Source: Siphonodentalium dalli
Lineage: Eukaryota > Mollusca > Scaphopoda > Gadilida > Siphonodentaliidae
Direction: 5' to 3'
NCBI GenBank assembly: GCA_032622095.1
Contig: CP136061.1
Location: 37,391,797-37,455,796, forward strand
DNA: 64,000 nt
The notes beneath the pieces were generated by a model, which saw only the letters and a program-made list of their open reading frames with translations, was not told where the DNA came from and searched no databases. Positions within the stretch are counted from its first letter, which is position 1. Each line of letters begins with the position of its first letter. The translations under genes and the position numbers were made by a program. This document shows positions 24,570 to 63,559 of this stretch, in pieces.

Positions 24570-24951
24570 CCTTTTACCCAACAGAAGGGCCCTGTGCCAA
24601 TGCATTCTCTTATATATGCGAGTCGACCATAGGTCGCCTCGCATATATAAGAGAATGCATTGGCTTAACACATTAAAAATTATAAAATTGTTAAAGAATG
24701 TAAGAAAAAATGGTAAAAAGTGTTAAAAAAAGATTTTTTTTAGGCCAATGCATTCTCTTATATATGCAAGGCGACCTATGGTCGACTCGCATATATAAGA
24801 GAATGCATTGGCACAGGGCATAACTGTAACTATCACAATGTGGTCAAGGAGCCGGTTCCAATGATATCCATATTTGTATGGTTCTATTGAGACAGACCGA
24901 AGATATTTTAGGCTGTTGAAGCTTTATTTGGCCGGTTTGTTGGGTAAAGGG
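24570..24951 (+). mobile_element. Family A twin-hairpin TTAA MITE fused to the wee1 stop codon
   Basis: Left flank TTAA 24566-24569, right flank TTAA 24952-24955. TIR CCTTTTACCCAACA and TGTTGGGTAAAGG. Palindromes at about 24596-24664 and 24744-24812 are in opposite orientation around an AT-rich linker. The right subterminal part carries GGCTGTTGAAGCTTTATTTG. It should lie in the wee1 3' UTR. Confidence 0.85.
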
Positions 24952-25072
24952 TTAATGTACAGAGACTATATAGAGATATTATTTATTCCAGAGTATCTAA
25001 AGAGTAATTTATATGTAGATAGAGACCGGGCACGTTACATCCCTTCAATCTTACACGGGACTGAATGTAGAT

Positions 25073-25519
25073 CAAGTCTAGATATAGTGTGTCTGACATT
25101 TGCAGAATGAGGTCCGGGGGGGGGGGGGGGGGGGGATTTAATGATGATGCTATCCCATATAGTGGGCTGGCATACCAAATTCACCCTTTGGGTGGCTCAT
25201 TCTGCTCAGGACTCTTCTGAGAAGTATCTATAATCTCAAATCAACATTGTTTTTAGCTATTTTTTCCCTTCTGTTCAGTTTCTTTATCCACTAATTTGCA
25301 GAAGATAAATTGCATAATCGAGGTGACTAATGGGTGAACATCACCAACTTCAACTGGGGCATTCCAATTTAACCCTAGGTCTCCCATAGCAGATGAGGCC
25401 TAAGCAGAATGAGGTTCCCAGAGGGTGAATTTGCTGATGCTAGCCTGCTCTGCGGGATAGCGTAAATAAATTCGCCTTCTGAGGACCTCATTCTGCGAAT
25501 GTCAGATGCACTAGACTTG
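25073..25519. mobile_element. Family E element, nearly full length, with G20 tract
   Basis: Ends CAAGTCTAG...TCTGACATT and AATGTCAGATGCACTAGACTTG are inverted. Two GC-richer hairpin blocks (GAGGTCC...GGGTGAATTT) flank an AT-rich core. A G20 run (25116-25135) has expanded at GGTCCCC of the left hairpin. Confidence 0.7.
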
Positions 25520-25663
25520 AAGATGATAAATCCTGAGCTCTAGTCGATACCCAGTTTGCATTTATTCCTAGGGAACTGTCTTTCATATTCATTTGAAGCA
25601 GGGTTTGTTCACAAGTCTGGAATTCCTAAACAAACTAAATTTCCCTTGATAAGTTGATATCTA

Positions 25664-25878
25664 CAGTAATGCCCTAAATAATCGACTCCTTAACCACAGC
25701 AGAATTATGGGTAATTGTTTTCAGGATTTAGTTGGAAATATGGCTTGTTGTCATTCATCGGAAAGCTCTTAATGAGAGCTTTCCGATGAATGGCAACAAG
25801 CCATATTTCCGACTAAATTCTGAAAAATTACCCATAATTCTGCTGTGGTTAAGGAGTCGATTATTTAGGGCATTACTG
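25664..25878. mobile_element. Family D foldback MITE (TA-flanked)
   Basis: CAGTAATGCCCTAAATAATC to its inverse, TA on both sides. It folds into one hairpin around AAAGCTCT..AGAGCTTT. TA duplication and CAGT ends suggest a Tc1/mariner-type MITE. Confidence 0.75.
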
Positions 25879-26096
25879 TACCGGTACATGTGTACTATTA
25901 TTTTAAAGGAAATTTCCTATGTACCCATGATGGCAGTACCATCCTGCAGGGGTCTTATTAAGTCATTGATTGTGCTGATATTTTTGGATGAAAGTCTTGA
26001 TATTTTCTGAATTATTTCAAAACTTAAAAAAATGTCAATTTATTATATTTCTTCCCAGACAAGTGTATCAACCCTGTGATGGAGAAATTGTGATTT

Positions 26097-26246
26097 GATT
26101 ATGAGTCGTTGGTAACTTGTGGCATTAGTGTGCTAAACATTACGATAGATTATGAGTCGTTGGTAACTTGTGGCATTAGTGTGCTAAACATTACGATAGA
26201 TTATGAGTCGTTGGTAACTTGTGGCATTAGTGTGCTAAACATTAGG
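26097..26246 (+). repeat. 51-bp tandem repeat, three units
   Basis: Unit GATTATGAGTCGTTGGTAAC... starts at 26097, 26148 and 26199 with almost no difference. Confidence 0.9.
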
Positions 26247-26882
26247 ATGTTGCTTAGTCTCAGCAAACCAAACTTTATAAATTTATAAACTCGTTTGGGG
26301 GAAATTCAAGAAAGTTGTTTCTCCTAAAAACTGTTGTAATACAAACTACATTCACACATTACTATAAAATTATATTTTGGTAGTTTATATAATAAAGGAA
26401 AAGGTATTTTGTAAGTTGTAGTTAAAGATAAACCAGCTGATTCAATATTTTGGCCTAAAAGTAATATTTATGTTCAAAGTAGCAATATTTTAGATATAAA
26501 ATCAGATAAAATGAAAATATATTAATCAATCTCTCACTAACCTTAACACTAATGTCAGGAGTTGTCAAAGTTACTGGTATTTAAATTGTAAGTTCTCCAT
26601 CAATTTGTTATTGCAATAGAATTTGTCCTAGTGCTATTGATGTGTTAATCAAAAGATGAAGATTGACAGGTCAATTCAGACAACCAGTTGGTGTTACTAT
26701 GAATGAAACTGATAGTGAAAGCATCTTTACCTTGGTCATTCTGTCAAGGTCAAATACAAATTTTCCACATAAAATATCCATAGACTTTAGCATCAAAATG
26801 CTTGTTATTCTTGTATGCCAGTAACTTGTTTTCCATAGTTGAATTGAAGTGCTTGTAATCAGTTGATCAATCAATGGTTTAA

Positions 26883-27072
26883 CCCTTTCAGTGCCAAGTC
26901 CGATTTTTGTATCAACCCATATTTCCTTGATCATTTTTCAAATTTATTGATTATAATAATGTGATACATTGATGGAAAGAGCTCTTTGTATCACATTATT
27001 ATAATCAATAAATTTGAAAAATGATCAAGGAAATATGGGTTGATACAAAAATCGGACTTGGCACTGAAAGGG
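26883..27072. mobile_element. Family B TTAA foldback MITE
   Basis: TTAA on both sides. CCCTTTCAGTGCCAAGTCC and its exact inverse at the right end; the two halves are near-perfect complements. Arms meet at AAAGAGCTCTTTG with one arm shortened. Confidence 0.8.
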
Positions 27073-27102
27073 TTAAACAATAACTTTGATTTCTGTAACC
27101 AT

Positions 27103-27236
27103 CAAGCTTTGAAATAGTGTGTCTGTCATTTGCAGAATGAGGTCCACAGAGGGTGAATTTAGTGACGATAGCATCACTATATTCACCATCTGGGGACATC
27201 ATTCTGCAAATGATAGACACACTATACAAAGGCTTG
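27103..27236. mobile_element. Family E single-hairpin copy
   Basis: CAAGCTTTGAAATAGTGTG to its inverse. Only one hairpin is present and the central core is missing: a solo form of the E element. Confidence 0.7.
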
Positions 27237-27731
27237 GAAATGGCAGTCATTGGTAATTTGTCTGTAGATTTTTAATTTCATTCAGTATTTGATTTCTAAG
27301 TTAGGTTCTTTACACATGTACATATCTGTGTTAAGATATTTTCAAATTTCAGCTTGCCTTTCTTTCACATATCACGTTGCATTTTCATTGCATGTGAATT
27401 GTATAGAATCACTGCCAAAAACAGGCAAACCATTTTCATTGAAGCCAGTGCTATAGGCAACTTGTATTTAAAAATTTGTATGTAGTTCTTGCTGTGTATA
27501 AAATCTCGAGGCCGGGCAGGCCTGACACTAAGGTGCTTTTTATTTCTCTTCCACAACCACTTTTCTTTCATGTTTGGTGCACGCTGTATGGTGTATTGTG
27601 GGAACCGTCTTGTCAACGATTCCTTTATGTATGCATTATGTTTGTTATGAAAAAGAAACCTTTTGTTGATCATGGATATGTGATATGTTGATTTGTTTGT
27701 AAATACATTTATGTCAAACTCAAAACTCTTT

Positions 27732-27742
27732 AATAAAATAAA
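27732..27742 (+). promoter_or_regulatory. wee1: Candidate wee1 poly(A) signals
   Basis: Overlapping AATAAA at 27732-27737 and 27737-27742, with GT/T-rich sequence following (GTTTGCTTTTTGG). This would give a 3' UTR of about 3.2 kb holding four inserted elements. Earlier polyadenylation is possible. Confidence 0.4.
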
Positions 27743-27780
27743 GCTATTTTAAATAAGTTTGCTTTTTGGTTTCTAAGTTA

Positions 27781-27935
27781 CAGTAATGCCCTAAGTAATT
27801 GACTCCTTTAACCACAGCAGAATTATGGGTAACTTTTCAGGATTTATGGCAACAAGCCATATTTCCGACTAAATCCTGAAAAGTTACCCATAATTCTGCT
27901 GTGGTTAAAGGAGTCGATTACTTAGGGCATTACTG
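27781..27935. mobile_element. Family D foldback MITE, short form
   Basis: CAGTAATGCCCTAAGTAATT with TA on both sides; the inner part of the left arm is deleted. Confidence 0.75.
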
Positions 27936-27961
27936 TAGTTGCCACCAGGAACCAGTCTTGT

Positions 27962-28627
27962 AGGGCTGCAATGATTCATCCTGAATTCAATGTATTGCGA
28001 TACTAGTACCCTTGCATATTCACGGTGGGGAAAACACGTGGTTTAGAGGTTGGTGAGTACCACGCATTCATAATGTGCAAATACATAATATACGAGGAAC
28101 TGACACAAAACATAGCACTTTGACTCTTACGAGCATATGGTAGTTTATTTTTGAAACAATTTGATACTTTATTTGTTCGGTAATACTTAGTGGTTTTCCA
28201 TAACATTCTGACCAAAGTTGCCAGTGCGTGGAATACATCAGTCCATACATCATTATTTCCTCGCTTCTGGTTGCATTTTAGATCGTCTTGGTCATTTTGA
28301 ATGCGTGATACTCATCAACTCGAAACCACATGATTCCACACCGTGGTCATGTGTATTGCAATACAGGAAATAAAGTAATGTCTGAAGATGGGCTTATGTA
28401 AAAAAGTTAAACCTGCAATTATATCAAGATTAGATGTACATGTACACTATCATCCAGCCAATAATTAAACTCCATTTTAGTTTAAAATGAACTCTACCTC
28501 CAGTTATAAATTTGTTGTTTCTGATCATTCAGGCGGTATTCATTTGGAAACACTAATTTAGTGTATCGTGATAAATATGATCATGTATTGTGATTCATAT
28601 TTTAACCAAGTGTATCATTGCAGCCCT
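27962..28627. mobile_element. hAT-like non-autonomous element
   Basis: Starts (T)AGGGCTGCAATGAT and ends ATCATTGCAGCCCT(A). Flanks AGTCTTGT/AGTCTAGA match at 6 of 8. About 0.67 kb, no transposase. Confidence 0.6.
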
Positions 28628-28925
28628 AGTCTAGAGGGTGGTGGGAGATATCTTCTCTCTAAATTGTGCCACTTTTCCCTATTTTAGTCCCAGGGAGAAG
28701 TGACTTCTCATTCATTCACAATAAGTGCCTGTAAGAATCAGTACAAATCATCATACTGTTTATACAAACATTTCCAAGGTTTATCAAGCAATAACTGAAG
28801 GCTCCAACTGCATAAAAAACAATCAACCCACCTGTTAATAATGTACTTAACTGTAGGTGAAGGTACCAAATCAAAATTGCATGTTTTTCTTTTACGTTTG
28901 TGAGCCGATATTGCAATCCTGTTAA

Positions 28926-29377
28926 CCCTTTACCCAACAGAAGGGCCCTCTGTTAGACTGGAGATTCCAGCTAACAATATCCGCAATTTGAGATCTCTCT
29001 ATTGCTGCTAACGCGGCGTCGGGGATTAGCTCCATTGTCCGTCGCACTAAGCCTAATCCAAAACCTATGGTCGACTCGCATATATAAGAGAATGCATTGC
29101 CTTAACACATTAAAAATTATAAAATTGTTAAAGAATGTAAGAAAAAATGGTAAAAAGTTTTTTTTTTAGGCCAATGCATTCTCTTATATATGCGAGGCGA
29201 CCTATGGTCGACTCGCATATATAAGAGAATGCATTGGCACAGGGCATAACTGTAACTATCACAATGTGGTCAAGGAGCCGGTTCCAATGATATCCATATT
29301 TGTATGGTTCTATTGAGACAGACCGAAGATATTTTAGGCTGTTGAAGCTTTATTTGGCCGGTTTGTTGGGTAAAGGG
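28926..29377 (+). mobile_element. Family A element with foreign filler in the first hairpin
   Basis: TTAA flanks and both TIRs are intact. The left half of hairpin 1 is replaced by about 118 bp of unrelated, GC-richer sequence (28950-29066) that I do not recognise. The remaining half has the hairpin centre in inverted orientation (CCTATGGTCGACTCGC). Confidence 0.75.
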
Positions 29378-29456
29378 TTAACTGTAGGTGAAGGTACCAA
29401 ATCAAAATTGCATGTTTTTCTTTTACGTTTGTGAGCCGATATTGCAATCCTGTTAA

Positions 29457-29858
29457 CCCTTTACCCAACAGAAGGGCCTTTACCCAACAGAAGGGCCCTG
29501 TGCCAATGCATTCCCTTATATATGCGAGTCGACCATAGGTCGCCTCGCATATATAAGAGAATGCATTGGCTTAACACATTAAAAATGATAAAATTGTTAA
29601 AGAATGTATGAAAAAATGGTAAAAAAGTGTTAAAAAAAGATTTTTTTTAGGCCAATGCATTCTCTTATATATGCGAGGCGACCTATGGTCGACTCGCATA
29701 TATAAGAGAATGCATTGGCACAGGGCATAACTGTAACTATCACAATGTGGTCAAGGAGCCGGTTCCAATGATATCCATATTTGTATGGTTCTATTGAGAC
29801 AGACCGAAGATATTTTAGGCTGTTGAAGCTTTATTTGGCCGGTTTGTTGGGTAAAGGG
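29457..29858 (+). mobile_element. Family A element with duplicated left end
   Basis: TTAA on both sides. The terminal CTTTACCCAACAGAAGGGCC occurs twice in a row; the rest is complete. Confidence 0.8.
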
Positions 29859-29940
29859 TTAATAATGTACTTAACTGAAGGTGAAGGTACCAAATCAAAA
29901 TTGCATGTTTTTCTTTTACGTTTGTGAGCCGATATTGCAA

Positions 29941-32030: not shown

Positions 32031-32759
32031 GTAGTGTTGAAACGATTAGCGATTTTAAGGAATCGATTAGTCGCCAGATGTAATCGACTACTAGTCGGAC
32101 CCCTTCTAAGAGTTCCCGTTTCTATGCCCATGGCATATGACGTATAAAATGGGGCTTAATGGGCCATGTGGCATCGCAGTTTTGAGTATCCAACTCTTCG
32201 TTTCAGAATGTTCAATGGGTATTAGAATCTATTCAGTTACTGAGTTGACTTGTCGCGAATTATGTTTCGTATATCATTGTTGCAATTTTGTTTCATTACT
32301 CTAGTATTACACGTGCCACAGTGAGAAGTTGTCAATTGCGTCACATCGAACTAGACAGTGTTTAGTCGGCAGCGACACTTCATGACTTTGATAAATAACA
32401 TAAAAGAAACCGCGCCTACACATGCATACATTGGGTTCTGTTCAGGTCATGGAGTTCATTGCCCGTGCATGACTGATGGCAGTGGCATTGTTAAAGGAAT
32501 AAAAGGTCGGCCGACCACAGTGTCCCCCGAAAACGTGGCAAGTCGACGCCGCTTTGTTAAAGAAATAAAAAAAATGTTGAAAGTCGAAAGGGTTAATAAT
32601 TCCGTAAAGAAATAATTTTTCCGTCATCTATATACATGTTGCACATCTCCAATATGTGGGTAACAATACTCTGAAGTTTAAAATATCTACGATCAAAACT
32701 GTAGGAGGAGTTGATTACACCATGAAGTTACCTTCATACAGAAAATGAGAAAAAACTAA

Positions 32760-33400: not shown

Positions 33401-33539
33401 GGGACAAAAATGCAATAAGGCTTTAAGAAATTATGTGTTAACTGTTAGATTACAGTCATTATAATATGGCTGTGCAATGACACTGCTGTCATGATAGCAC
33501 CTGGGTAGTGCTTTTTCGCCTTGACTAATCGACTAGCAG

Positions 33540-34655: not shown

Positions 34656-34793
34656 GTGATCTAGCTTGATCTGAGTCGAGGGAATCATGACATGGCCATT
34701 TCTATTATGATAATTTAATCACACACAACATGAGGCAATGAACACCTCGTCAGGCCACACTATATGGTGCTGGACATACATGTAAGAGGCATA

Positions 34794-35008
34794 CAGTACT
34801 GCCCATAAGTAATCGACTCCTTAACCACAGCAGAATTATGGGTAACTTTTCAGGATTTAGTTGGAAATATGGCTTGTTGCCATTCATCAGAAAGCTCTCC
34901 CCGAGAGCTTTCCGATGAATGGCAACGAGCCATATTTCCAACTAAATCCTGAAAAGTTACCCATAATTCTGCTGTGGTTAAGGAGTCGATTACTTATGGG
35001 CATTACTT
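34794..35008. mobile_element. Family D foldback MITE
   Basis: TA-flanked hairpin. Private variant CCCATAAGTAAT is present in both arms. Confidence 0.75.
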
Positions 35009-35261
35009 TATTTCAATGTTTGGTGCAGGATTCATAACCAAAATAATTGACACATGATTCTGTTGCAGTAAACTTTATTCTATGCTACATAACTTCAATA
35101 TATACACAAACTCTATCATTGTTAATATCAGGTGTCGTTACACTATTTAATGGTGTACTATTTTTCTTGGCACCCAATTCGGGAGTCATATTTTGGGGCT
35201 CCACCATTTAAATCAAAGTCTACATCTATAAAAAGTGACTTATTTCAGATTGATGTGTGGC

Positions 35262-36033: not shown

Positions 36034-36055
36034 TACATGTATGCATACTAACATA

Positions 36056-36268
36056 CAGTAATGCTCTAATTAATCGACCTCTTAACCAAAGCAGAATTAT
36101 GGGTAACTTTTCAGGATTTAGTCGGAAATATGGCTTGTTGCCATTCATCGGAAAGCTCTCGGGGAGAGCTTTCCAATGAATGGCAACAAGCCATATTTCC
36201 GACTAAATCCTGAAAAGTTGCCCATAATTCTGCTTTGGTTAAGAGGTCGATTAATTAGAGCATTACTG
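36056..36268. mobile_element. Family D foldback MITE
   Basis: Private variants GCTCTAATTAATCGACCTC and AACCAAAGC occur in both arms. Confidence 0.8.
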
Positions 36269-36440
36269 TATTCGGGATAAGTCACTTCTCCCTAGGACAA
36301 AAATAGGGAGAGGTGGCACATTTCAGGGAGAAGTCTCCCTAGTCACCCTCTTGGTTGCTCCCTGGATGACATCAAGGCACCATAAATCTCAATGAATTGA
36401 CAGTGGTCAAGCCACCACAAGATCAGAAAATCATATTTAA

Positions 36441-36649
36441 CCCTTTCAGTGCCAAGTCCGATTTTTGTATCAACCCATATTTCCTTGATCATTTTTCAAA
36501 TTTATTGATTATAATAATGTGATACATTGATGGAAAGAGCTCTTTTTGAGCTCTTTCCATCAATGTATCACATTATTATAATCAATAAATTTGAAAAATG
36601 ATCAAGGAAATATGGGTTGATACAAAAATCGGACTTGGCACTGAAAGGG
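36441..36649. mobile_element. Family B TTAA foldback MITE, full length
   Basis: TTAA flanks; 209 bp near-perfect palindrome from CCCTTTCAGTGCCAAG, centre AGAGCTCTTTTTGAGCTCT. Confidence 0.85.
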
Positions 36650-37989
36650 TTAAGGGAAGAATAATGTGGAAACACAACATTATATTATAGCTGATGACAG
36701 CCCAGAAAGCGATTTGATAGTGAAACGGACACCTTATTTAAACTCTCGATAAGTTACAGTCATAAAACAGTAATATGAAATATACATCAATAAGTTACAA
36801 AGCAAAATCGTTAACACCTTAATTAACACCTTAATTAACATACCTGTCTATTAAACTAACATAACAATTATGTCATACAAAATCATAATTAGTGATGTAT
36901 GAAGCAGCACCATGATATCGGCCAGGTTCAGATACAAGAACATCTAACATCAGTCAATATTAATTACTAATGGTCAGCTGATTCATGTCATTGCCAAAGA
37001 TTTAAATTTTCTGAATGGTTTTGGGTCAAAATGACTAACACAATTGTGCAGGTCATTCAGAAATTGAGTGGGCTGAAAGAGTTGGAAATTCTCAGAAATA
37101 AACAATATTTTTAAGGATTAATTTGTTACTTTATATGTGGTTTGTAGATTTATTGTGCAGCAGTAAAATGTGGGCCTCTATTTGCAGCTTATGCTTATAG
37201 ATATGAATACAAGCAGGCAGAAATTCTTCCGTTAGCTATTTATTTTTCATTGTCTGATCATTTTGTTATCAGCAGTCACTCTACAAGCTGCACTTGTCAG
37301 TGCAATATCTAGCATTCATCTTTTTATATGAACAGAAGTTAGGAGTTCTTGGATCTATATCTGGCTATTGCACAATACCTGACGATGTGGGGTAAAATAT
37401 GTAGATATTATCCAGGTCTGGCTCATGATTCAAGGTCTGGCTCATGATTCATGAATCTGATTATATATATTCCGATTTGTGCATAATGTGAAAATTGAGC
37501 TATAGCTTTGATTTCTGTATCCACCATGAACCATTTCCTTTGAAACCCATTATTTACTTCTTATTTGTATTAACAACAATTGATGCCAGGAATAATCAGT
37601 TTCCAAAATAAAGTGATTTTATGGAGTTGGAAGAAAATAAAAAAAAAATATTCCAAAGTAAATCATTAAAAGTCCACTTTCTCTGATTTCCTGCTAAAAA
37701 AAAAAATCCTGCTGAATTTTTTTGAATATTCTCATATCAACATATTACATGTAATATTAAACATTAGCTGACACAAATAATTGTGATCATTCCCTTATAA
37801 TATTTGATGATAAACTGATATAGCTTGATTTGCACATTGTGCACAAATCGGACTTTATTGTGAGATTTGAACATGAGCCAGACCTGTTACATGTATATGG
37901 GGCCATGGTCTGTCACAACTGACTCTCTTTAACTCCTACATGTTAATAAATATCGAGTCCCAGAAACAACTATGGACAAAAGGCATAAC
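36650..37989. other. Non-coding sequence
   Basis: No gene or element ends seen. A short tandem of AGGTCTGGCTCATGATTC (two units) lies near 37414-37455. Confidence 0.4.
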
Positions 37990-39390: not shown

Positions 39391-42047
39391 CTGTAAACAA
39401 AAATAAAAAATATGAAAAAAGATGAGAGGTTCCAGAATATGGTCAATTAGCTTTCAGACAGGGGTGTAACCAGAGGAGGGGGTTCAGGGGGGGGGCGGCT
39501 ATAGCCCCCTGTCGGGGGGATTGTAGCCCCTAGCTATGTCGGTGAAATCCTGGTGCCACCCCTGCTTTTGGACTTTACATTCTTTGCCCAAAAAAAATAT
39601 CACAAAATTGACCATCATCTGCGTTCCCAGTCCCAAAAATATCCAAAAATTTAATGTTGACAGTCCCGTGCAGTCCCAAAAGAACTGTGAAATCGATGGC
39701 TGTGAGTGCACCCAATACTAATTTAGATGATTCTGCAATATATGTGGTAACATTTCATCATGAAAACCTGAACTACAAATTATATAATAATAAAATATGC
39801 TGTGTTTTCAAAAACTTGATCAACTTCCCTCATATATTAAATGGATGCAATTATTTAGCACATTCTACAGTATACAAGATTCAATTTATTTAATACTTGC
39901 TGAATTTTAGCCTTTATTCAGCATTGGAGGGGCCACATGGCAGAGCCTTTATTAAGTGGCAGCCTCTTTTTGCGCTTCAAGCCATTTTGATTGTTTAAAT
40001 ATTAGGATTAAAAAAAAAAAAATGAATTTAAAAATTGATTTTTAAACACTAACGCTATTATCAGGGTACCCTGAGTCACCAAATTTGGTTGAAATCGGTC
40101 CAAGAGTCTGGGAGAAAAATCTGAACAGATCCCACTCTTTTACATATACAGATGTTGTGCACCAAAAGCTTCTCAACTAAAGAGAAGTAACTCTATTGTT
40201 ATTTAATACTTGGTGTATCAAAAGCATCTCAGCTGAAGAGAAGTAACTCTATTGTTAAGTTACTAGTTATGGAAATGGTATTGCCCCTTGGTTTGTTCAA
40301 GTATTAAAATGTGCATCTGGTGTGATTAATTACCCTGTTAAAAGTTTGTTATAAAGTCACTTAAATTTGGGGATTATTTAAATAGCCAATTGTAAGTTGT
40401 TAGATAGTATTGTTTGAATGACTATTATGAGAGATAATACATCTATGAATGATCAAACATGTTCTATAGATCATCAGATTGGATAATATATTTAGAGGAT
40501 ATTACTTGGTTGGTTTGATATTAGGCCTGATATCAGCTCAAAGTAACCTCATATCATATAAGGTTACCGAGGGCTGATATCAAGATAAAATGATATTACT
40601 CGGTTTGGTGATGTCGTAAAATGATATTACTCAGTTTAAGGACAAACTGAAGCGATATTCAATTCACATAGTTTGATAGCAGGCCGTTCTGGACAAAACT
40701 GTCATATCAAATTAATAATAATATGTAAATCCCCTGTGACAAATACAGCATAAAGTCACTTGCCCAAGATGAATAATATACTGGTAGTAACCATTTGGTA
40801 ACTGAATACTTAATGATGGATATAGTTACTTGCATGAATTCAATTGAAGTATTTAAAGGGATGTTGTAGCCCTGTGAATCAACGGTTTGCAGTCAATTAA
40901 AATCTCAAATCGAATAAAGAGTGATATTAGCAATTGAATCAAATCTCGAATTAACTATATGCATGGGTAATTAATCCAAATGCATGGGGACAGTGATGTA
41001 AACATAATTGATGTTATTTTAATATACTATATACAGCAAGTGACTAAATTGATGGCGTATTTGTGCTACTGTTCACACATAGGTTTGGTTCGCACATTCG
41101 TAAAATGTTTTCAATATTTTAAATGCACACTACATTTGGGTGATCAGGAGAGAACAGCACTATAATCTTTCTTTTCTTTGCTGCCTTGTCATTGGTACAA
41201 ATCAATTCAGCAAGACAAATTAAATCAGCATAAATTTAGAACAAGACAGCTTCAACCTTGTGTTCGTTTTCTTGCACAAGAATGCAAAAAAGACTGATTT
41301 TAAAATATTTGAATCAGGCCAAAACAAATTATACCTGTATTTCTGGTGAAACGAATAGGGGCAGGCGGGTGGCTTTTCATTTTATTTAATTTTTTCATTT
41401 TATTATCAACTTTGCTCAAAATAAATATGAATACCCCCCACCTCCCGGACTTCTTCTCCTTGTTTGTAATGTACTATAAAATAATAAAACTAAGTACATA
41501 ATAATATAGTATACATGTAGTGTAATTTATTGTTTTATTGAATAAAACATGAACAAATTTATTGATTCAGCTGTGACCTAACTGAAGTGTGGTATAATTT
41601 CCAGTTTAACAGTACATGCAATGTGTCCATTTTGGCGGAAATGAATCAGTTTACAAGGAAAATAAAATCGGATGCGTACTAATTTTGCAAAATCAATAAA
41701 ATGAAAATGGTCAGGGTGCCGGAATAGGGGCGGGCGGGTCACTAGAAACACAGGTCATTTTAATTTTGGCCTCATATGATAAAATAAAATAAAATCTAAC
41801 AGCTGAGTTGAATCGAACCTAAAACTCAAAGCTTCGCAGGGCCCTAGGATGTTCATGTAATGACAAATGAGTTGCTGAGTTGCCATTTGCTTTTATAATG
41901 AGAATCCATCCAGTAATTAAAGAGGTAAATTTACTGGTAACTCATTGGGTTGAACACAAAATTGTTATCCTAGCTTTTCATAGCAAAGACAGCTGTATAT
42001 GTTCTGCCCATGGTCTAAATGTGCAATTTTACGTGACCGCTGATTAA
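39391..42047. other. Large intron of the - strand gene
   Basis: A G-rich stretch lies at 39480-39520 and a paired 'AGCATCTCA...GAAGAGAAGTAACTCTATTG' direct repeat at 40165-40260. No further exon is seen. Confidence 0.4.
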
Positions 42048-42439
42048 CCCTTTACCCAACAGAAGGGCCCTGTGCCAATGCATTCTCTTATATATGCGAG
42101 TCGACCATAGGTCGCCTCGCATATATAAGAGAATGCATTGGCTTAACACATTAAAAATTATAAAATTGTTAAAGAATGTAAGAAAAAATGGTAAAAAGTG
42201 TTAAAAAAAGATTTTTTTTAGGCCAATGCATTCTCTTATATATGCGAGGCGACCTATGGTCGACTCGCATATATAAGAGAATGCATTGGCACAGGGCATA
42301 ACTGTAACCATCACAATGTGGTCAATGAGCTGGTTCCAATGATATCCATATTTGTATGGTTTTATTGAGACAGACCCAAGATAATTTAGGCTGTTGCAGC
42401 TTTATTTGGCCGTTTTTGGCCGGTTTGTTGGGTAAAGGG
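42048..42439 (+). mobile_element. Family A twin-hairpin MITE
   Basis: Left flank TTAA, right flank ATAA. Both hairpins and the linker are intact. Right part carries variants (GACCCAAGATAATTTAGG) shared with the copy at 5803. Confidence 0.8.
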
Positions 42440-42665
42440 ATAAAAAATTCAAACAGACACGAACGAAACAATATCATATTTATTAAAAAATATAAGAAAA
42501 ATACATATTTTTAATGCTATATATCAACAAATTGATACCTCTTATCAAATCATGTCTATGTAATTTAGGGAATTGAATGAGCAAAATCTGCTTAAACAAA
42601 ATTGTTTTGGGTCGGTTTATCGCTGGGGTGGGTTATCATGGAGCCGGTGGATATATATGTGTTAC

Positions 42666-51157: not shown

Positions 51158-51167
51158 TTAAGATGAG

Positions 51168-51421
51168 CAAGCCTTGAAATAGTGTGTCTGTCATTTGCAG
51201 AATGAGGTCCCCAGAAGGTGAATTTAGTGATGCTACCCCGCATAGCGGGCTAGCATCACCAAATTCACCCTCTGGGGACCTCATTCTGCTTACAACTCAG
51301 CAGAATGAGTTTCACAGAGGGTGAATTTGGTGATGCTAGCCCGCTATGCGGGATAGCATCACTAAATTCACCCTCTGGGGACCTCATTCTGCAAATGACA
51401 GGCATACTATTTGCAGGCTTG
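51168..51421. mobile_element. Family E element lacking the AT-rich core
   Basis: Ends CAAGCCTTGAAATAGTGTG and ATACTATTTGCAGGCTTG; two fused hairpins with GCTA(C/G)CCCGC(A/T)TAGCGGG-type centres. Confidence 0.75.
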
Positions 51422-51757: not shown

Positions 51758-51766
51758 TTCTTTTAA

Positions 51767-54196: not shown

Positions 54197-54565
54197 CCCT
54201 TTCATGATGGGGGTGGGCTGCACTGGTGCTGCATTAAATATCCTGTGTCAGTGCATTCTCTTATATACGTGGGTCTCATATAGGGAGCCTCGTATATATA
54301 AGAGAACGCACTGGCTTACAAGTCCAAGGAAAATATTTTTAGGCCAATGTATTCTCTTATATATGCAAGGTTCCCAATGTATTCTCTTATATATGCAAGG
54401 TTCCCAATGTATTCTCTTATATATGCGAGGTTCCCAATGTATTCTCTTATATATGCAAGGTTCCCTCTCAATGTATTCTCTTATATATGCAAGGTTCCCT
54501 TGTATTCTCTTATATATGCAAGGTTCCCGTTCTCAAAATTTCAAGATGCTCCAGTCATGGAAGAG
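54197..54565. mobile_element. Family C element with expanded hairpin arm
   Basis: TTAA flanks; CCCTTTCATGA left. At 54344-54527 one arm unit of about 30 bp (CCAATGTATTCTCTTATATA) is repeated six times in tandem. Confidence 0.75.
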
Positions 54566-55101: not shown

Positions 55102-55499
55102 TATTAGCGGGAGTGTTTCTTTCCCCTCAGACACAGGTAGTTATTCCAAGAGTTGGGCATCATGTGGCCAAATAACGTCTTGAGATATCAAGATACCCAT
55201 GTTAATTCATAGCGTATATCATACTATATTTACTAGGTCATGATACTGATCTGATCAACCTGCGATTATACAATGAGTATGACCAGTCATAAATATACAG
55301 CATATGATCTTGTTAAATGCCCACTTAATTTTTGAATGCCTAAAACACATTATACACTATTTACATGATATATGATATACCGTTTGGAAGAGGAACCAAA
55401 ATTATATTTATTCCACCAGAATACGGAAAGCTGTGGCCTAGGAATGTCCATCATGTGATAAGAGATTCTCAGATTCAAGACTTCCAAATTATTTACTCC

Positions 55500-56530
55500 A
55501 GAATGTATCATAATTCACAAAAAGAGATAAAGTTATCCCCTTACATTGAAAATAATAGACTGGCAGTACAGACCAGTTCGAAACTAGAGATATCCCAAGT
55601 ATTAAAAATTTTCTAAGCCAAAAAAGGGGGGTAACTCCCCAAAAACAAAAGTCTGTCAGACCTCATAATCACAGGTGCACATGTTCCTACAGCACTAAAT
55701 ATCTGTGCCAAGTTTTAAAAAATTTACCAAAAAATGTAGGAATAAAAGCTTGGACAAAGATATACCCCTGTATTGAACATTTTCGAAGTCGAAAAACCTC
55801 ATAATTACAGGTGAACAGGTTCCCATGACACTAAATATATGTGCCAAGTTTTAAAACAATTGACCAAAAAATGTAGGAATAAAAGCTCGGACAAAGGTAT
55901 ACCCCAGTATTGAACATTTTCGAAGTCGAAAAAGGAGGATAACTCCACAAAAAAAAAGTCAAACAGACCTCATAATTGCAGGTGCAAAGGGTCCCATGGT
56001 ACTAAATACATGTATCTGTGCCAAGTTAACCCTTTACCCAACAGAACGGCCCTATGCCAATGCATTCTCTTATATATGCGAGTCGACCATAGGTCGCCTC
56101 GCATATATAAGAGAATGCATTGGCTTAACACATTAAAAATTATAAAATTGTTAAAGAATGTAAGAAAAAATGGTAAAAAGTGTTAAAAAATATTTTTTTT
56201 TAAGCCAATGCATTCTCTTATATATGCGAGGCGACCTATGGCACAGGGCATAACTGTAACTATCACAATGTGGTCAAGAAGCCGGTTCCAATGATATCCA
56301 TATTTGTATGGTTCTATTGAGAAAGACCGAAGATATTTTAGGCTGTTGAAGCTTTATTTGGCCGGTTTTGGCCGGTTTGTTGGGTAAAGGGTTAAAAAAA
56401 AAATGACTGAAAAATGTAGGCCTAACAGCTCAGACAAAATTTGCGTCCACAGAGGGTGGACGGCTAGACAGACAGACAAGGTGATTCAAGTATAGCCCCC
56501 CCCCTGCAACGAGGGGTGGGTATAATTACA
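55500..56530 (+). repeat. ATAACTCC-type repeat split by a family A element
   Basis: Repeated 'GTGCCAAGTTTTAAAA', 'AAAAAATGTAGGAATAAAAG' and 'GAACATTTTCGAAGTCGAAA' units, ending in ACAGACAGACAAGG. Interrupted at 56030-56391. Confidence 0.65.
56030..56391 (+). mobile_element. Family A MITE with damaged second hairpin
   Basis: TTAA both sides. The second hairpin stops at GCGACCTATGG and jumps to CACAGGGCAT, so its right arm is deleted. Confidence 0.8.
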
Positions 56531-56563
56531 TAATTATTAATAATTACAATTATCCAATCTCCA

Positions 56564-56746
56564 ATAGGGAGCCCCACATATTTAAGAGAATATACTGGCT
56601 TACAAGGTCATGGTTCATATTCAGAGGTTCAGAGTCCAATGCATTGTTATATATGTGAAGCTCCCTATGGGAGACTCGCATTATAAAAGAGAATGCATTG
56701 GCACAGGGTTTTCACAAAATTTCAGGAAGCTCTAGTCATGGAAGGG
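56564..56746. mobile_element. Family C element, left end lost
   Basis: Two degraded hairpins with CCAATAGGGAGCC-type centres and right end TCATGGAAGGG before TTAA. Confidence 0.6.
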
Positions 56747-56852
56747 TTAACTTTTCTATACTAAACACTAATTGATGAGTAGTTACCCCTCAGGAAATGT
56801 TCAGATAATAAGTTCAGGTTTGTTGAACTTATTATCTGAACATTTCCCTTAA

Positions 56853-57234
56853 CCCTTTACCCAACAAACCGGCCAAATAAAGCTTCAACAGCCTAAAATA
56901 TCTTCGGTCTGTCTCAATAGAACCATACAAATATGGATATCATTGGAACCGGCTCCTTGACCACATTGTGATAGTTACAGTTATGCCCTGTGCCAATGCA
57001 TTCTCTTATATATGCGAGTCGACCATAGGTCGCCTCGCATATATAAGAGAATGCATTGGCCTAAAAAAAATCTTTTTTTAACACTTTTTACCATTTTTTC
57101 TTACATTCTTTAACAATTTTATAATTTTTAATGTGCTAAGCCAATGCATTCTCTTATATATGCGAGGCGACCTATGGTCGACTCGCATATATAAGAGAAT
57201 GCATTGGCACATGGCCCTTCTGTTGGGTAAAGGG
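56853..57234 (-). mobile_element. Family A twin-hairpin MITE
   Basis: TTAA both sides, complete, reverse orientation. It is inserted next to a hairpin of GAAATGTTCAGATAATAAGT (56806-56848). Confidence 0.85.
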
Positions 57235-57409
57235 TTAATAAATAGGACTCATTCTGTACTTTTATTATTTGTTTGCTTTTATTCCAATGTATACTTTTTT
57301 ATAACTGAATGGGAGAATCCTTTTTGTACATAAAGGGTTATCCCTATCATTACAATCACTTTGGGAATGGAACTTTATCCTAGATCAAGGAGCGCAGCAA
57401 ACTCTCTTA

Positions 57410-57693
57410 CAGTAATGCTCTAAGTAATCGACTTCTTAACCACAGCAGAATTATGGGTAACTTTTCAGAATTTAGTCGGAAATATGGCTTGTTGCCATTC
57501 ATCGGAAAGCTCTACCTGAGACCTTTCCGATGAATGGCAACAAGCCATATTTAGTCGGAAATATGGCTTGTTGCCATTCATCGGAAAGCTCTCCCTGAGA
57601 GCTTTCCGATGAAAGCCATATTTCCGACTAAATCCTGAAAAGTTACCCATAATTCTGCTGTGGTTAAGAAGTCGATTACTTAGAGCATTACTG
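57410..57693. mobile_element. Family D MITE with doubled hairpin
   Basis: TA flanks. The block GGAAATATGGCTTGTTGCC...AAAGCTCT and its inverse occur twice in succession, giving two stacked hairpins between the same outer arms. Confidence 0.8.
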
Positions 57694-57745
57694 TAGGTAC
57701 TCCGGGACACATAAACCCTGGAATGCCAAATTAATTAAAGCAGAT

Positions 57746-58163
57746 CAAGTCTGAGTTTAGTGTGCCTGCCATTTGCAGAATGAGGTCCCCAGAGGGTGAA
57801 TTTAGTGATGCTATCCCACATAGTGGGACAGCATCATTAAATTCACCCTTTGGGGACCTCATTCTGCTTAGGCCTCATCTTCTCTGGAAAGTATCTTTAT
57901 TATAAAATTTCTGTAGAAACCTCTTCACGTAGATTCTATTTCTATTTAAGTTTAGTTTCTCTATATATATCCCCAAATTGGCAGACAAGATATTGCATAA
58001 TCAAGGTTCCCAATGGGTGTACATCACAATATGTCTGCCATTGAGGCAATGATGTCCCAGAGCTTGAATTTGGTGATGCTAGCCCGCTATGTGGGACAGC
58101 GTCACTAAATTCACCCTCTGGGGACCTCATTCTGCAAATGACAGGCACACTAAACTCAGGCTT
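57746..58163. mobile_element. Family E element, full length
   Basis: Ends GTCTGAGTTTAGTGTGCCTG and CAGGCACACTAAACTCAGG inverted; two hairpins and a core. Confidence 0.7.
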
Positions 58164-58486
58164 CAAATGAGATCTGATGGAATCTAAGGCTAAGTGTTAA
58201 AATTGTGCCTTTTCAAATGCAATTAAAATTATGTCTTCCAGACACTTTTATATGAAGTACACAGTGGGGTGTGGGAGTAAAACAATCAAACCAAAACACA
58301 CAGCTCTAATCTAATTCAGCATGTTATAAAAAAAAATTAGTTGCTCTATCAATTAACATCGTTAGGAGAATGACCCAAATAATTGGACTTGCCATGTGCT
58401 GAACTCCAGCTGCGTTCTCGGGAATTAGGTCAGTAGGTATGAAGAGGAGGAAGACAGACAGACGGACAGACGTTTTTTTTTTATAC

Positions 58487-58609
58487 CTGGTTGGCATCAC
58501 ATTCTTCATTGGACAGCATTCCGTGTGCAAAATGCATATCTTCCAGTCGTTTAATAATCTGCTCGCCAGGTATGCGTCTGTTGGCCAACAACTCCGAGAG
58601 TGAATGCAT
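58487..58609 (-). CDS. Internal coding exon of an unrecognised - strand gene
   Basis: Between acceptor tctcctcag and donor ACCAG|gtata on the - strand, 41 codons, phase 0 at both ends. It reads as a helical segment containing LSELLANRRIPGEQIIKRLE and ends HGMLSNEECDANQ. It begins with ATG directly after the acceptor, which may be chance or a start. Pairing it with the exon at 45154-45375 rests on shared strand and phase over a 13-kb gap. I do not recognise the protein. Confidence 0.6.
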
Positions 58610-58807
58610 CTGAGGAGAGAAAAAAGGAAGTGCCTCAGGATATACATAAGACTCTGGCAGTAAACACTGATATTACCTGAGCGAAACTCGAGTGGATGTG
58701 ATTGTTAAGATGTGAATATAAATGGGATCCGCACCAAACTCCATCAGCTCAAGTAGTCTACATATATTCTTATGTTCTAAACACATGTTTTGTCTTTTTT
58801 TTTTTTG

Positions 58808-59690
58808 GGAATGCTCTTAAGAACCACATGAGAGCAATCCTCCTGAAATACATGTCTCCATTCAATGATGGCGTCTTTCCTAGAAACTTTTGTTGTGCCT
58901 ATTTAAGTGGCCAGTAGGGCAATGGAGCAGTTTATATTCTTATGTTAGAAACACGCTTTGTCTTCTTTTGTATGTTTTTTTTTTTTTGGAATGCTCTTAA
59001 GAACCACATGAGAGCAATCCTCCTGAAATACATGTCTCCATTCAATGATGGCGTCTTTCCTAGAAACTTTTGTTGTGCCTATTTAAGTGGCCAGTAGGGC
59101 AATGGAGCAGTTTATATTCTTATGTTAGAAACACGCTTTGTCTTCTTTTGTATGTTTTTTTTTTTTTGGAATGCTCTTAAGAACCACATGAGAGCAATCC
59201 TCCTGAAATACATGTCTCCATTCAATGATGGCGTCTTTCCTAGAAACTTTTGTTGTGCCTATTTAAGTGGCCAGTAGGGCAATGGAGCAGTTTATATTCT
59301 TATGTTAGAAACACGCTTTGTGTTGTATTTTTTTTTTTTGGAATGCTCTTAAGAACCACATGAGAGCAATCCTCCTGAAATACATGTCTCCATTCAATGA
59401 TGGCGTCTTTCCTAGAAACTTTTGTTGTGCCTATTTAAGTGGCCAGTAGGGCAATGGAGCAGTTTATATTCTTATGTTAGAAACACCCTTTGTCTTCTTT
59501 TTTATTTTGGAATGCTCTTATGATTTACATCAGAGAATTGTTCCGAGAATACATTTCCGTTCAATAATCTTAGTTTTTCGTGTTCTTTATAGAAACTTTT
59601 GTTCTCTCAAGATGTTGGTAGGGCAAGGGACCATCATTTTTATGTTCTAAACACATGTTTCGTCTTTTTTTTAAAGGAATGCTTTTAAAG
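58808..59690 (+). repeat. Satellite-like array, about 180-bp units
   Basis: GGAATGCTCTTAAGAACC units start at 58808, 58988, 59168 and 59340, nearly identical, with a diverged unit at 59509. Further diverged units lie at about 60548, 61158, 61325 and 61917, separated by insertions. Each unit ends in a T-rich run. Confidence 0.9.
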
Positions 59691-59693
59691 GAA

Positions 59694-60155
59694 CCCTTTC
59701 AGTGCCAGGTCCGATTTTTGTATCAACCCATATACCCTGTGCAAATGCATTCTCTTATATATGCGAGTCGACCATAGGTCGGCTCGCATATATAAGAGAA
59801 TGCATTGGCCTAACAATTTTTCATCATTTGTTATTATTTTTTATAATTTTTTACAATTTTAATAATTTGTTCTTATATTCTTTAACAGACTTATTTTGTA
59901 GCTTTAGTGCCAGGGAATCTTACGTTTTTCATGGGCATCAAAATTATTACTATGAATACTTGGTGATAGTTTTGAGTTATAACATGCCCCTAAGGTTTTA
60001 TTCAGTTTGTTTTTAAATTCGCTATAGCATGCTTAAGCATACCCAAAAAAAATTCAACCCAAAAAAAAAAAAACTTAAAAAAAAAAAAATTTATTTAGGA
60101 CCGATTTTAGACCGTATATTAGGGCCGATGAGATCGGGCCCTGGCACTGAAAGGG
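59694..60155. mobile_element. Chimeric element: family B ends with a family A hairpin
   Basis: Ends CCCTTTCAGTGCCAGG (family B type) at both sides enclose one full family A hairpin (59748-59809) and an unrelated AT-rich tail. Left flank is GGAA, right flank TTAA. Confidence 0.75.
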
Positions 60156-60157
60156 TT

Positions 60158-60500
60158 AAAGACATATTATGGACTTGTTCGGGTGCATGTAACTGAGACT
60201 TAGTAATCAGGCGGTATGCCAACTGGAGGAATGCAGCATTCTAATACATTGCCGAAAATCTCAAGCAAATCGACAATATACATGTATACCACTCCACAGA
60301 AAACATTGTCTGAAATATGCTCAATTGTAAATATGTATTCCGATTCGGGATGCATTTAATTAATATATAAGAATGACTGTTTGTGTTGTCAATATGGTTA
60401 TACACGTACTATTGATAAATATAAAAACTTTGCGCAAAATTTTTTTCCATTTCTATTTGATCACCCTACACGAGTGTTTCACATCACTTTAAGAACAAAA
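60158..60500 (+). repeat. Family F fragment
   Basis: Matches the element at 4537-5168 from TTATGGACTTGTTCGGGTGC through CGAGTGTTTCACATCACTTT. Confidence 0.65.
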
Positions 60501-60762
60501 CGAGAAAAGTAGTTATAAATACAGGTTTTGTAATTTAGTTTTTTTTAGGAATGCTCTTAAGATGCACATCAATGCAATGTTCCCAAAGTGCATATTTCCA
60601 TTCACTGATGTTGGCTTTTAGCTTTTATAGAAACTTTGTTTTCGTTTGCTGGAAAAAGCATGTTGAAACACATTTGTTTATAAAGAAAAAAATAATCTGT
60701 CAGGTTGCTAGCGGGGCCAGAGATCAGCCAACAATCTTTGTAAATATTTTTTCCTTTATTAA

Positions 60763-61154
60763 CCCTTTACCCAACAGAACGGCCCTGTGCCAATGCATTC
60801 TCTTATATATGCGAGTCGACCATAGGTCGCCTCGCATATATAAGAGAATGCATTGGCTTAACACATTACAAATTATAAAATTGTTAAAGAATGTAAGAAA
60901 AAATGGTAAAAAGTGTTAAAAAAAGATTTTTTTTAGGCCAATGCATTCTCTTATATATGCGAGGCGACCTATGGTCGACTCGCATATATAAGAGAATGCA
61001 TTGGCACAGGGCATAACTGTAACTATCACAATGTGGTCAAGTAGCCGGTTCCAATGATATCCATATTTGTATGGTTCTATTGAGACAGACCGAAGATATT
61101 TTAGGCTGTTGAAGCTTTATTTGGCCGGTTTTGGCCGGTTTGTTGGGTAAAGGG
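60763..61154 (+). mobile_element. Family A twin-hairpin MITE in the satellite array
   Basis: TTAA both sides; complete. The right TTAA continues as TTAATGCTCTTAAGAC, so it is inserted at the start of a satellite unit. Confidence 0.85.
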
Positions 61155-62040
61155 TTAATGCTCTTAAGACACACATCAGAGAAATGTTCGTGAAATGCAG
61201 GTTTGCATTCAATGATGCTGGATATTATGGAAACTTATGTTCTGCCAAGTGGCCAGTAGGGCAGGGGACCATCCTATATTATTATGTCGTAAACACATAC
61301 ATGTTTTGTCTTTTTTTTGTTGAAGAATGCTCTTAAGATGCACATTAGAGCAAAGTTCCTGGAATACAAGTCTCCAGTAAAGGTATGTGACGGTAGGACG
61401 TGTATGGGTGTGTTCCGGTCTCTAATGTGGCCTGAATCCATTGGGGACCATAATGGAAATAAATGGTCTTAGGACTGTTTTCTTATGCTATCCCAGATGG
61501 TTTTTGGTCACCTGTTAGTGCCAGACATCTCCTTTACAGTCTCATACCCTGAATAAACACCATATACTCATGCTGGGCATTGGTCGACTGCAGAAGTGGC
61601 AGTGTAACATATGGTACATCACATCCTACCACAGGTGATCTATGTCCTGTAATAATTTAATATTCTACATCTTACTAATTTCTGTTAATCTGGCACATGT
61701 TATATCACCTACATGTATTTCCATTGTCTATTTTATATTTGCATGTAGGTTGTCCTGCACTAATGTGTGTTTAAAAGACCATTAAAACATATATTATCTT
61801 ATCTTAAAGGAGTGTGGCGTTTTCCTTCTTTTTTTCTTTTCTGCAGGCTGTGCTAGCAGGGCCAGGGATATCAGCCTATATTATTGTGTCTTTATAAATA
61901 AATTGTTCTCTTTTCTGAGGAATTCTATTAAGATTGATTTGAAAGCAATGTTCTTGGAATACATGCATTTATTTCCATTCAATAATCTTGGCTTTTAACT
62001 TTAGTTAAAGAAGGGGGGGGGGGGGGGGTTCAGTTTAGAA

Positions 62041-62705
62041 TGTGGAGCTTGGTAGCCCAGTGGTTAGAGTGTCAGACTTGTAATGGTGTTAACCCTTTAC
62101 CCAACAAACCGGCCAAAACCGGCCAAATAAAGCTTCAACAGCCTAAAATATCTTCGGTCTGTCTCAATAGAACCATACACATATGGATATCATTGGAACC
62201 GGCTCCTTGACCACATTGTGATAGATACAGTTATGCCCTGTGCCAATGCATTCTCTTATATATGCGAGTCGACCATAGGTCGCCTCGCATATATAAGAGA
62301 ATGCATTGGCCTAAAAAAAATCTTTTTTTAACACTTTTTACCATTTTTTCTTACATTCTTTAACAATTTTATAATTTTTAATGTGTTAAGCCAATGCATT
62401 CTCTTATATATGCGAGGCGACCTATGGTCGACTCGCATATATAAGAGAATGCATTGGCACAGGGCCCTTCTGTTGGGTAAAGGGTTAAGGCACCAGCATG
62501 AGGTCGCGCCCGCGCCATTGGACTATCATCTCAACAGTGGCTTGGCCAGATTAATCCGTGTGTGTGCTGTACAGAGCCACACGCTGTTTCAAAAATTGCG
62601 CCAGGTTGTGACCCTTGGGCAAGATAACTTGTACTGTGCTTGCTCAGTCATAACTAGACGAAAAATAGGGACCTGGTTGTTGGATAAGTGTAAGCCACTC
62701 AGGTG
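62041..62705 (+). repeat. tRNA-derived SINE-like sequence split by a family A element
   Basis: A-box-like TAGCCCAGTGG (62053-62063) is followed by GTTAGAGTGTCAGACTTG. After the insert come GAGGTCGCGCCCGC (B-box region, degenerate) and GTGACCCTTGGGCAAG (62608-62623), which resembles the conserved central part of CORE/Deu-type SINEs. Interrupted at 62093-62484. Confidence 0.5.
62093..62484 (-). mobile_element. Family A twin-hairpin MITE inside a SINE-like sequence
   Basis: TTAA both sides, complete, reverse orientation. Confidence 0.85.
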
Positions 62706-62949
62706 AAGCACCTGCAAAATGACAGCAGGCACATTAGACTCGGCATTACTCAACAGCAGGGGTAATTAAAATTGCTCAGAGCCCTCGCGGGGATATGCAC
62801 TATACAATTCCCATTATTACCATAGATGGAAAAAGGGAGAAACATCTCCTTCCCAACATTAACAGTTTTTTTTTTACCTCGCTTGAAATCAATTATTTGG
62901 ACACGATTACCCTATGATTTGCGAAGTGATACATACGCTTTGATAAATA

Positions 62950-63040
62950 TGTCGGGGTTTGAACCAGCACCAATGCTACCTCATCTAGCCAAGACTACTG
63001 AGATGGTATACATGACCTAACCACCTCAGCTATGGGGACA
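62950..63040 (-). repeat. tRNA-like SINE head
   Basis: On the - strand, A box TAGCTGAGGTGG (63021-63032) and B box GGTTCAAACC (62956-62965) match Pol III consensus. Their spacing of about 55 bases is longer than in most tRNAs, so a SINE promoter is more likely than a tRNA gene. Confidence 0.55.
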
Positions 63041-63041
63041 T

Positions 63042-63291
63042 CCCTTTCATGATGGGAACTGAGCTGGTGCAGCATTAAGATCCTGTGCCAGTGCAATCTT
63101 AAATGCGAGTCTCCTATAGGGAGCCTCGCATATATAAGAGAATGCACTGGCTTACAAGGCAAAGATACATATTGTTAGGTCAATGTATTCTCTTATATAT
63201 GCGAGGCTCCCTATGTGAGACTCACATATATAAGAGAATGCATTCGCACAGGATGTTCGCAAACTTTCAGGAAGCTCCAGTCATGTGAGGG
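63042..63291. mobile_element. Family C element
   Basis: CCCTTTCATGATGGG left end, two GTCTCC(T/C)ATAGGGAGCC-type hairpins, right end before TTAA. It abuts the SINE-like head. Confidence 0.7.
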
Positions 63292-63351
63292 TTAAAACGG
63301 AAGCTGTTGCACCGAGATTCGAGCTACGTATCAGTCTGAACATGGGTTTAA

Positions 63352-63559
63352 CCCTTTCAGTGCCAAGTCCGATTTTTGTATCAACCCATATTTCCTTGAT
63401 CATTTTTCAAATTTATTGATTATAATAATGTGATACATTGATGGAAAGAGCTCTTAAGAGCTCTTTCCATCAATGTATCACATTATTAAAATCCATAAAT
63501 TTGAAAAATGATCAAGGAAATATGGGTTGATACAAAAATCGGACTTGGCACTGAAAGGG
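63352..63559. mobile_element. Family B TTAA foldback MITE
   Basis: TTAA flanks; 208-bp near-perfect palindrome, centre AGAGCTCTTAAGAGCTCT. Confidence 0.85.

Follow-up and report, generated by a model that had tools for sequence, protein, structure and literature searches.

Small non-autonomous DNA transposons of the scaphopod Siphonodentalium dalli (assembly GCA_032622095.1; 2,226,750,531 bp, nine contigs) carry one hairpin module, sharply bounded at its outer edge, under unrelated ends and with two kinds of target duplication. The window, the whole stretch of 64,000 nucleotides (nt) that was analysed, lies on contig CP136061.1 (C1:37391797-37455796). Three samples of the same genome were compared with it: twenty 10-kb stretches from all nine contigs, placed independently of the hairpin arm (200 kb, here the random stretches), eight 3-kb loci, and forty short stretches around arm matches at 0.1-2.1 Mb of C1. 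In these genome samples, the hairpin is contained in at least four families of very small transposons, named A, C, D and E, whose ends differ. It is moderately probable that a module of ~130-140 nt was passed a few times between otherwise unrelated transposons of this kind, and that the mosaics then multiplied.

The hairpin and its carriers

An original prediction had claimed that one hairpin arm occurs in two TTAA-flanked families, A and C, and in a supposed chimera at position 59694 of the window, and the arm is indeed present in all three. With up to three mismatches, the arm, GCATTCTCTTATATATGC, matches the window 57 times, against 0.09 expected from shuffles (standard deviation 0.32), and by our own reading these matches are spread over 16 elements, ten of family A, five of C and one of D; a 17th element, C6, is degenerate. 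The exact arm is found 325,962 times genome-wide (163,240 + 162,722), with no match for the control pattern, read backwards, and the window is enriched: it has 43 exact arms, where the genome mean would give 9.4. The range first given for the sharing, 24570 to 63559, does contain the arm but is too small, as the family A copies A1 (5799-6187) and A2 (17787-18180), both on the reverse strand, lie outside it.

The predicted sharing of an arm was correct as far as it went, but more than the arm is shared: a 69-nt imperfect palindrome, GCCAATGC...GCATTGGC, of which the arm is a part, six nt outside it and a portion of the spacer in the case of A, D and E. The palindrome has a loop of three bases, and its consensus contains one T:C mismatch at positions 28/42, the T facing the nearest element end; exceptions are the D copy of the window, with T:G, and the flipped loop in copy A4 and at comparison loci L029 and L060. 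One hairpin of each of three families was folded, and all three fold far better than shuffles, at -36.3 (A), -23.2 (C) and -34.1 (D) kcal/mol, with z of -14.1, -8.8 and -12.3, respectively. The outer-edge sequence of the module is CCCTGTGCCAATGCATTC, and the edge is sharp: its consensus is CCCTGT for A, D and E and for the right side of C, whereas the left side of C has TCCTGT; on its inner side, the hairpin passes into an AT-rich spacer. Broken hairpins account for 76/256 arm entries, most commonly with breaks at 35-39 nt (24) and 20-24 nt (19), duplicates and tandem arms among these entries not being independent.

Family A, with ends CCCTTTACCCAACA, is built as TTAA, short flank, hairpin 1, AT-rich spacer, hairpin 2 (an inverted copy), long flank and TTAA, and its cassette as a whole is an inverted repeat with arms of ~80 nt. 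The hairpins are positioned ~26 to ~150 bp inside the element ends. Without the duplications, A elements measure 358-402 bp, and A4 452 bp (18 copies, window and random stretches). The full plan is found in A3 (24566-24955, forward strand), whose hairpin 1 occupies 24596-24664 (forward; 69 nt, T:C mismatch at 28/42) and whose hairpin 2 occupies 24744-24812 (reverse). Family C shares this plan of two hairpins, with a shorter spacer, and its loop stem reads CTCCC/GGGAG as against CGACC/GGTCG in A, with matched changes on both sides.

The element at 59694, for which the end CCCTTTCAGTGCCA had been given, was taken for a single recombinant and is instead a normal member of family D (59690-60159, forward), full-length, with ends CCCTTTCAGTGCCAGG, GGAA on the left, TTAA on the right, and one hairpin (59741-59809, forward), in which T:G replaces the T:C mismatch. 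Full-length relatives occur at L041 (282-751) and L052 (330-776), and internally deleted ones at L002, L011, L031, L032, L033, L039 and L065; D copies with both flanks visible mostly have TTAA/TTAA, exceptions being the GGAA/TTAA of the window copy and the TTAA/TTGT of L031. The left outer 40 nt of the window D copy are identical at 39/40 to family B, and its right part is different. The three B copies, at 26879-27076 (with D's outer 40 nt), 36437-36653 and 63348-63563, are palindromic TTAA elements without the hairpin module and have no strand assigned.

Family E, which is not in the window, was found at L009, L018 and further loci. Its ends read TGTGACCCGCC (also written TGTGACCCGCCATATCAAATCCAGTCG) and its edge TTTTTACCCTGTGCC, and it contains two hairpins in inverted order; its lengths are mostly ~425-470 bp (284 at L074, and ~556 for the second copy at L076), and its 26-nt end motif has 18,960 genome matches. 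Equal 2-bp flanks, read by eye, border 12/14 distinct two-ended copies (TA in eight, TT in two, AA in one, TG in one) and unequal flanks the other two (L042, L073), L069 being left out as a duplicate of the L059 locus; a TTAA duplication is present in 0/14. At L075 (1-471), an E copy has landed in the TATATA stretch of a hairpin arm whose uninterrupted sequence is known, so that the empty site, and with it a TA duplication, can be read directly. A TA duplication is the mark of Tc1/mariner transposons. Hairpin arms are present in 8/8 distinct copies retrieved by their ends, from end pairs picked mostly 420-470 bp apart, so that E copies of other lengths might lack the module.

For comparison across backbones, 92 distinct hairpins at most 13 substitutions from the A type were used, of which 87 could be assigned to a backbone (A_short 29, A_long 23, D 13, E 12, C_left 5, C_right 5); the remaining five (L023, L040, L053 twice, L058), left unassigned, lie beside truncated A or E-like sequence. 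The consensus is identical at 69/69 positions, T:C mismatch included, in A_short, A_long, D and E, and the mean distance of 0.023 between D and E hairpins compares with 0.026 within D and 0.019 within E; the C hairpins are set apart, at about 0.10 and 0.15. Outward from the hairpin, positions 1-6 are equal (6/6) in every A/D/E consensus pair, whereas at positions 7-26 only 2 to 10 of 20 are equal between the A, D and E consensuses. The inner spacers, compared as one stretch per family, are related (D-E 48/56, A_long-E 46/53, D-A_long 41/54; 0/500 dinucleotide shuffles as good), with the inner side of A_short and the short spacer of C below that similarity. That different backbones have one hairpin in common is therefore better supported than had been claimed, since the identical consensus extends to E, which is not a TTAA element.

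Proposed transfer, conservation and alternative origins

Variation within family A was counted in 17 copies that had been located, in the window and in the random stretches, through their ends and the long-flank motif, A4 with its replaced arm being left out. Variants common to at least two of the 17 copies occur at 0/138 hairpin sites against 15/244 others (p 0.0016), and hence the A hairpin is either constrained or homogenised. Private variants number 8/2316 in the hairpin and 41/4112 elsewhere (p 0.004), 12 of the 41 coming from L011. The hairpin is fixed at the level of active A lineages, a statement that concerns lineages and not correction after insertion. Another count, 12/3627 against 144/6493, is biased because its loci had been chosen for the exact arm, and it was not used. 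The near constancy of the hairpin could mean that it aids multiplication of the element, that is, selection for copy number, or that palindromes convert each other; candidate roles would be fork stalling and repair, host-factor binding, and resistance to silencing.

Among two-ended elements with recognised backbones, both ends belong to one backbone in 29 of A, 13 of C, 10 of D and 6 of E, some of them from duplicated segments, and mixed ends are found in 0/58. Outside the 58 stand C_left/C_left (L019), A_short/A_short (L024) and two B/B pairs, as well as pattern overlaps, neighbours or single ends, namely A_short/A_long+ (19), D_left/B_left+ (4), D_right/D_right+ (1), C_right/C_right+ (1) and one-ended rows. 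As there are no mixed ends and no clear solo hairpin, the transfers look like a few founding events, after each of which the mosaic multiplied.

Signs of recombination are nevertheless present in individual copies. In A4, one arm has been lost to ~110 bp of other DNA and the other half is flipped; at L060, a single hairpin links both flanks of an A element; at L019 (8267-8476), two left C ends are joined in one element; and at L030, a left flank of C adjoins an A-type hairpin and loop and a spacer resembling those of A and E (50/58 and 47/58; 0/500 shuffles). A palindrome is its own inverse, so that any two hairpins can be paired in either orientation, which makes the palindrome the probable site of the transfers. 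Observed directly are the common hairpin with its sharp outer limit, the differing ends and duplications, and the absence of shared variants from the A hairpins; how the module moved, which transposases acted and what the hairpin confers are inferred. The module, made up of the outer edge CCCTGT, the 69-nt palindrome and part of the AT-rich spacer, would have been transferred during repair, most likely through recombination at the palindrome, template switching there, or nesting with later deletion, and each mosaic would then have been amplified via its own ends and its own transposase, yielding A, C and D with TTAA and E with a 2-bp duplication.

Much of this evidence bears as well on concerted evolution, in which each backbone would have gained the hairpin in ancient times and ectopic gene conversion among very many palindromes would keep the copies identical. 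The A, D and E hairpins agree at every position while the compared spacers differ by 13-24%, the A hairpins have no shared variants, and arms are found flipped and exchanged; however, family C has retained a distinct loop stem, with a difference of ~10-15%, and private mutations of the A hairpin are not clearly fewer with A4 counted. Such homogenisation is somewhat unlikely as the explanation of the sharing, and it is compatible with a few transfers followed by multiplication; under homogenisation, identical hairpins would tell little about when a transfer took place. It is doubtful that the module is a parasite of transposons, a palindrome that spreads between superfamilies by recombination at its own arms and drives the copying of its carriers, so that abundant small elements with different transposases have converged on one interior. 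The odds of concerted evolution and of the alternatives that follow overlap.

The original prediction had allowed for a hairpin able to move by itself, and this is less likely, as inspection by eye of the window and of 200 kb of random stretches revealed no clear solo copy, and no constant duplication flanks the module. The same observations weigh on the idea that the module was once itself a transposon that inserted into several others, which is quite unlikely, even though its ends, CCCTGTGCCA...TGGCACAGGG, match the piggyBac CCYT motif and are sharp and recurrent, the A cassette is an inverted repeat, and similar composites are known for CMITE-IN (PMC2872659). Constant-flank forms, including TTAAYCCTGTGCC and TTAAYCCTGTGCCARTGC, would be expected from it; the four bases that precede the module edge instead vary among five contexts (AAAA, TATA, TATG, AGGG, AATA), with no constant target duplication at the module edges, and the TA on both sides in E follows also from E's own symmetry. 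A nested former TTAA element was considered and was not taken as the main explanation, the nearest approaches to TTAA before the edge, in the sequences compared, being TTTA (E) and TTAG (one A copy). The 22 nt of arm without a recognised backbone at L001 (1956) and L004 (2062), one locus in two copies, are possibly a chance match.

Descent from one TTAA ancestor that already had the hairpin, with later divergence of the ends, had been named as what would overturn the predicted exchange, and it is very improbable as an account of all families. The sequence TTAACCCTTT is kept in A, C and D, and the hairpin polarity and the inner edges GGCTTA/GGCCTAA are common to A and C, so that A, C and D could fit among themselves; but the outer 40 nt of D are common to B, which is without the hairpin, and for E, which has the same hairpin with other ends and a 2-bp duplication, such descent is refuted. 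Ordinary divergence fails for E against the TTAA families A and D because the hairpin is identical and the flanks are equal at the first six positions and then at only 2-10/20. Improbable, too, is the proposal that one shared transposase binds the hairpin as a subterminal site and that nothing else conserves it. Binding to subterminal palindromes is described for piggyBac and piggyBat transposases (PMC11707139), but this hairpin measures 69 nt and in A is placed ~26 to ~150 bp within the ends, and the different duplication and lack of a CCYT end in E suggest another transposase.

Several points weigh against a few transfers followed by multiplication. The comparison loci, labelled L, come mostly from the first 2.1 Mb of C1 and were chosen for the exact arm, and the 92 hairpins were filtered by likeness to the A type. 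The lower private variation of the A hairpin is insecure, as private variants become 19/2454 against 42/4345 (p 0.5) once A4 is included. The 0/58 mixed ends mean that exchange is not frequent now. Moreover, no autonomous partner or transposase was found, separate transposases being assumed, and the split of A, C and D, taken alone, could be an old divergence of one TTAA family. Among 10 open reading frames (ORFs) of the window compared with Pfam for a transposase, 2/10 have matches, to kinases only. A 4-kb pair of E ends at L076, examined as a candidate autonomous partner, contains two E copies, its ORFs having been listed only.

Precedents and meaning

Non-autonomous transposons are classed by their ends, and what lies between is usually regarded as neutral filler. 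In S. dalli, one interior is found across families and duplication classes, and in family A shared variants are fewer there than in the remainder of the element. It thus becomes testable whether internal sequence, beyond the site of the transposase, determines the success of small elements in a genome, and 325,962 arms in one 2.23-Gb genome provide a large sample for such tests. A shared conserved central domain under different heads and tails is known from families of short interspersed nuclear elements (SINEs), which are retrotransposons and are copied by another mechanism. Kolobok transposons duplicate TTAA.

The ends of A, C and D are CCCTTT or CCCTTC and agree with the CC[C/T]T motif (PMC2872659), and on the TTAA duplications and CCCTTT ends alone, these families would be classed as piggyBac-like. 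The Kolobok superfamily (PMC9587614) is a second possible home for TTAA elements, with CCCTTT ends fitting piggyBac better by the same motif (PMC2872659).

The predicted absence of any described system of this kind does not stand, since CMITEs (PMC2872659) and Galileo (PMC3573991) are precedents and the closest published parallels among the matches listed. CMITEs of Acropora have different terminal inverted repeats (TIRs) around one conserved internal region (PMC2872659). The S. dalli elements resemble them in their TTAA duplications and CCCTTT-type ends, in surrounding a single internal region, better conserved than the TIRs, with TIRs of several families, in their tandem arrays, and in composites formed by insertion. 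CMITEs are, however, ~100 bp long with a 75-bp internal region, unlike the carriers of the module; that region is not described as a hairpin in the main parts of the paper (PMC2872659), and the likeness is one of description. Furthermore, all CMITE families are TTAA elements, whereas here a family with a 2-bp duplication, E, also has the module.

In Drosophila mojavensis (PMC3573991), copies of Galileo combine TIRs of one subfamily with the internal region of another, for which its authors invoke ectopic recombination and conversion attracted by the long TIRs. Chimeric copies mixing ends and interior are common to both systems; as described there, however, Galileo is one transposon of the P superfamily with 7-bp duplications, and the exchange takes place among its own subfamilies (PMC3573991). 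No 7-bp duplication is seen here, the duplications being 4 bp (TTAA) in A, C and D and 2 bp in E. What these elements add to the precedents is the long-palindrome interior, its identical consensus across families, and its crossing from TTAA elements to a 2-bp-duplication element; among the matches listed from the open-licence literature, no report of an interior common to the two was found. Comparison of the translated cassette with proteins of other organisms gave 0 candidates with three common words, and viral contigs gave 0 matches to a 22-nt arm pattern.

Other copies and neighbouring sequence

TTAA borders both sides of 8/10 window A copies, the exceptions being A1, with ATAT/ATAT as if inserted at ATAT, and A6 (42044-42443, forward), with TTAA/ATAA. 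A1 has two hairpins. A4 (28922-29381, forward), in which the outer arm of hairpin 1 is swapped for the other DNA, stands in tandem with A5 (29453-29862, forward) and a repeated flank of about 70-90 bp; together they form a tandem array at 28829-29930, in which TTAA sites of the flank repeat abut the element ends. In A7 (56026-56395, forward), half of hairpin 2 is deleted from near its centre. The remaining A copies are A8 (56849-57238, reverse), A9 (60759-61158, forward) and A10 (62089-62488, reverse).

Among the six window C copies, only C1 and C3 have TTAA at both ends, and the others are truncated or changed at one end. C1 (38516-38778, forward) has ends CCCTTTCATGA / CCCTTCCATGA and two hairpins with CTCCC/GGGAG loop stems, and C3 (54193-54569, forward) contains six tandem half-hairpin copies of ~30 bp each at 54343-54530. 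C2 (50985-51161, forward) is without its left end and has broken hairpins; C5 (51763-51847, reverse) is a fragment with the right end and half a hairpin, broken at the loop; C4 (63038-63295, forward) is a further copy, and the degenerate C6 lies at 56554-56750 (forward). Other long inverted repeats of different sequence, without the hairpin module, occur at 51168-51421, 36053-36271, 34791-35011 and 57747-58163, with arms of 108-123 bp that are 89-98% complementary.

Elsewhere on contig C1, positions 820000-927000 form a tandem array with a unit of ~11,175 bp and several hairpin arms per unit. Loci L039 and L043, and likewise L040 and L044, hold the same hairpin elements ~132 kb apart, and these pairs are probably a segmental duplication.

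The window is animal DNA and contains a WEE1-like gene at 14359-24565 (forward). A look-up of proteins for the WEE1-bearing window returned six matches, at most 47% identical and either without a name or 'hypothetical'. An open frame at 24356-24676 leads from what may be the last exon of the WEE1-like gene into A3, so that A3 may provide the end of that gene's coding sequence.

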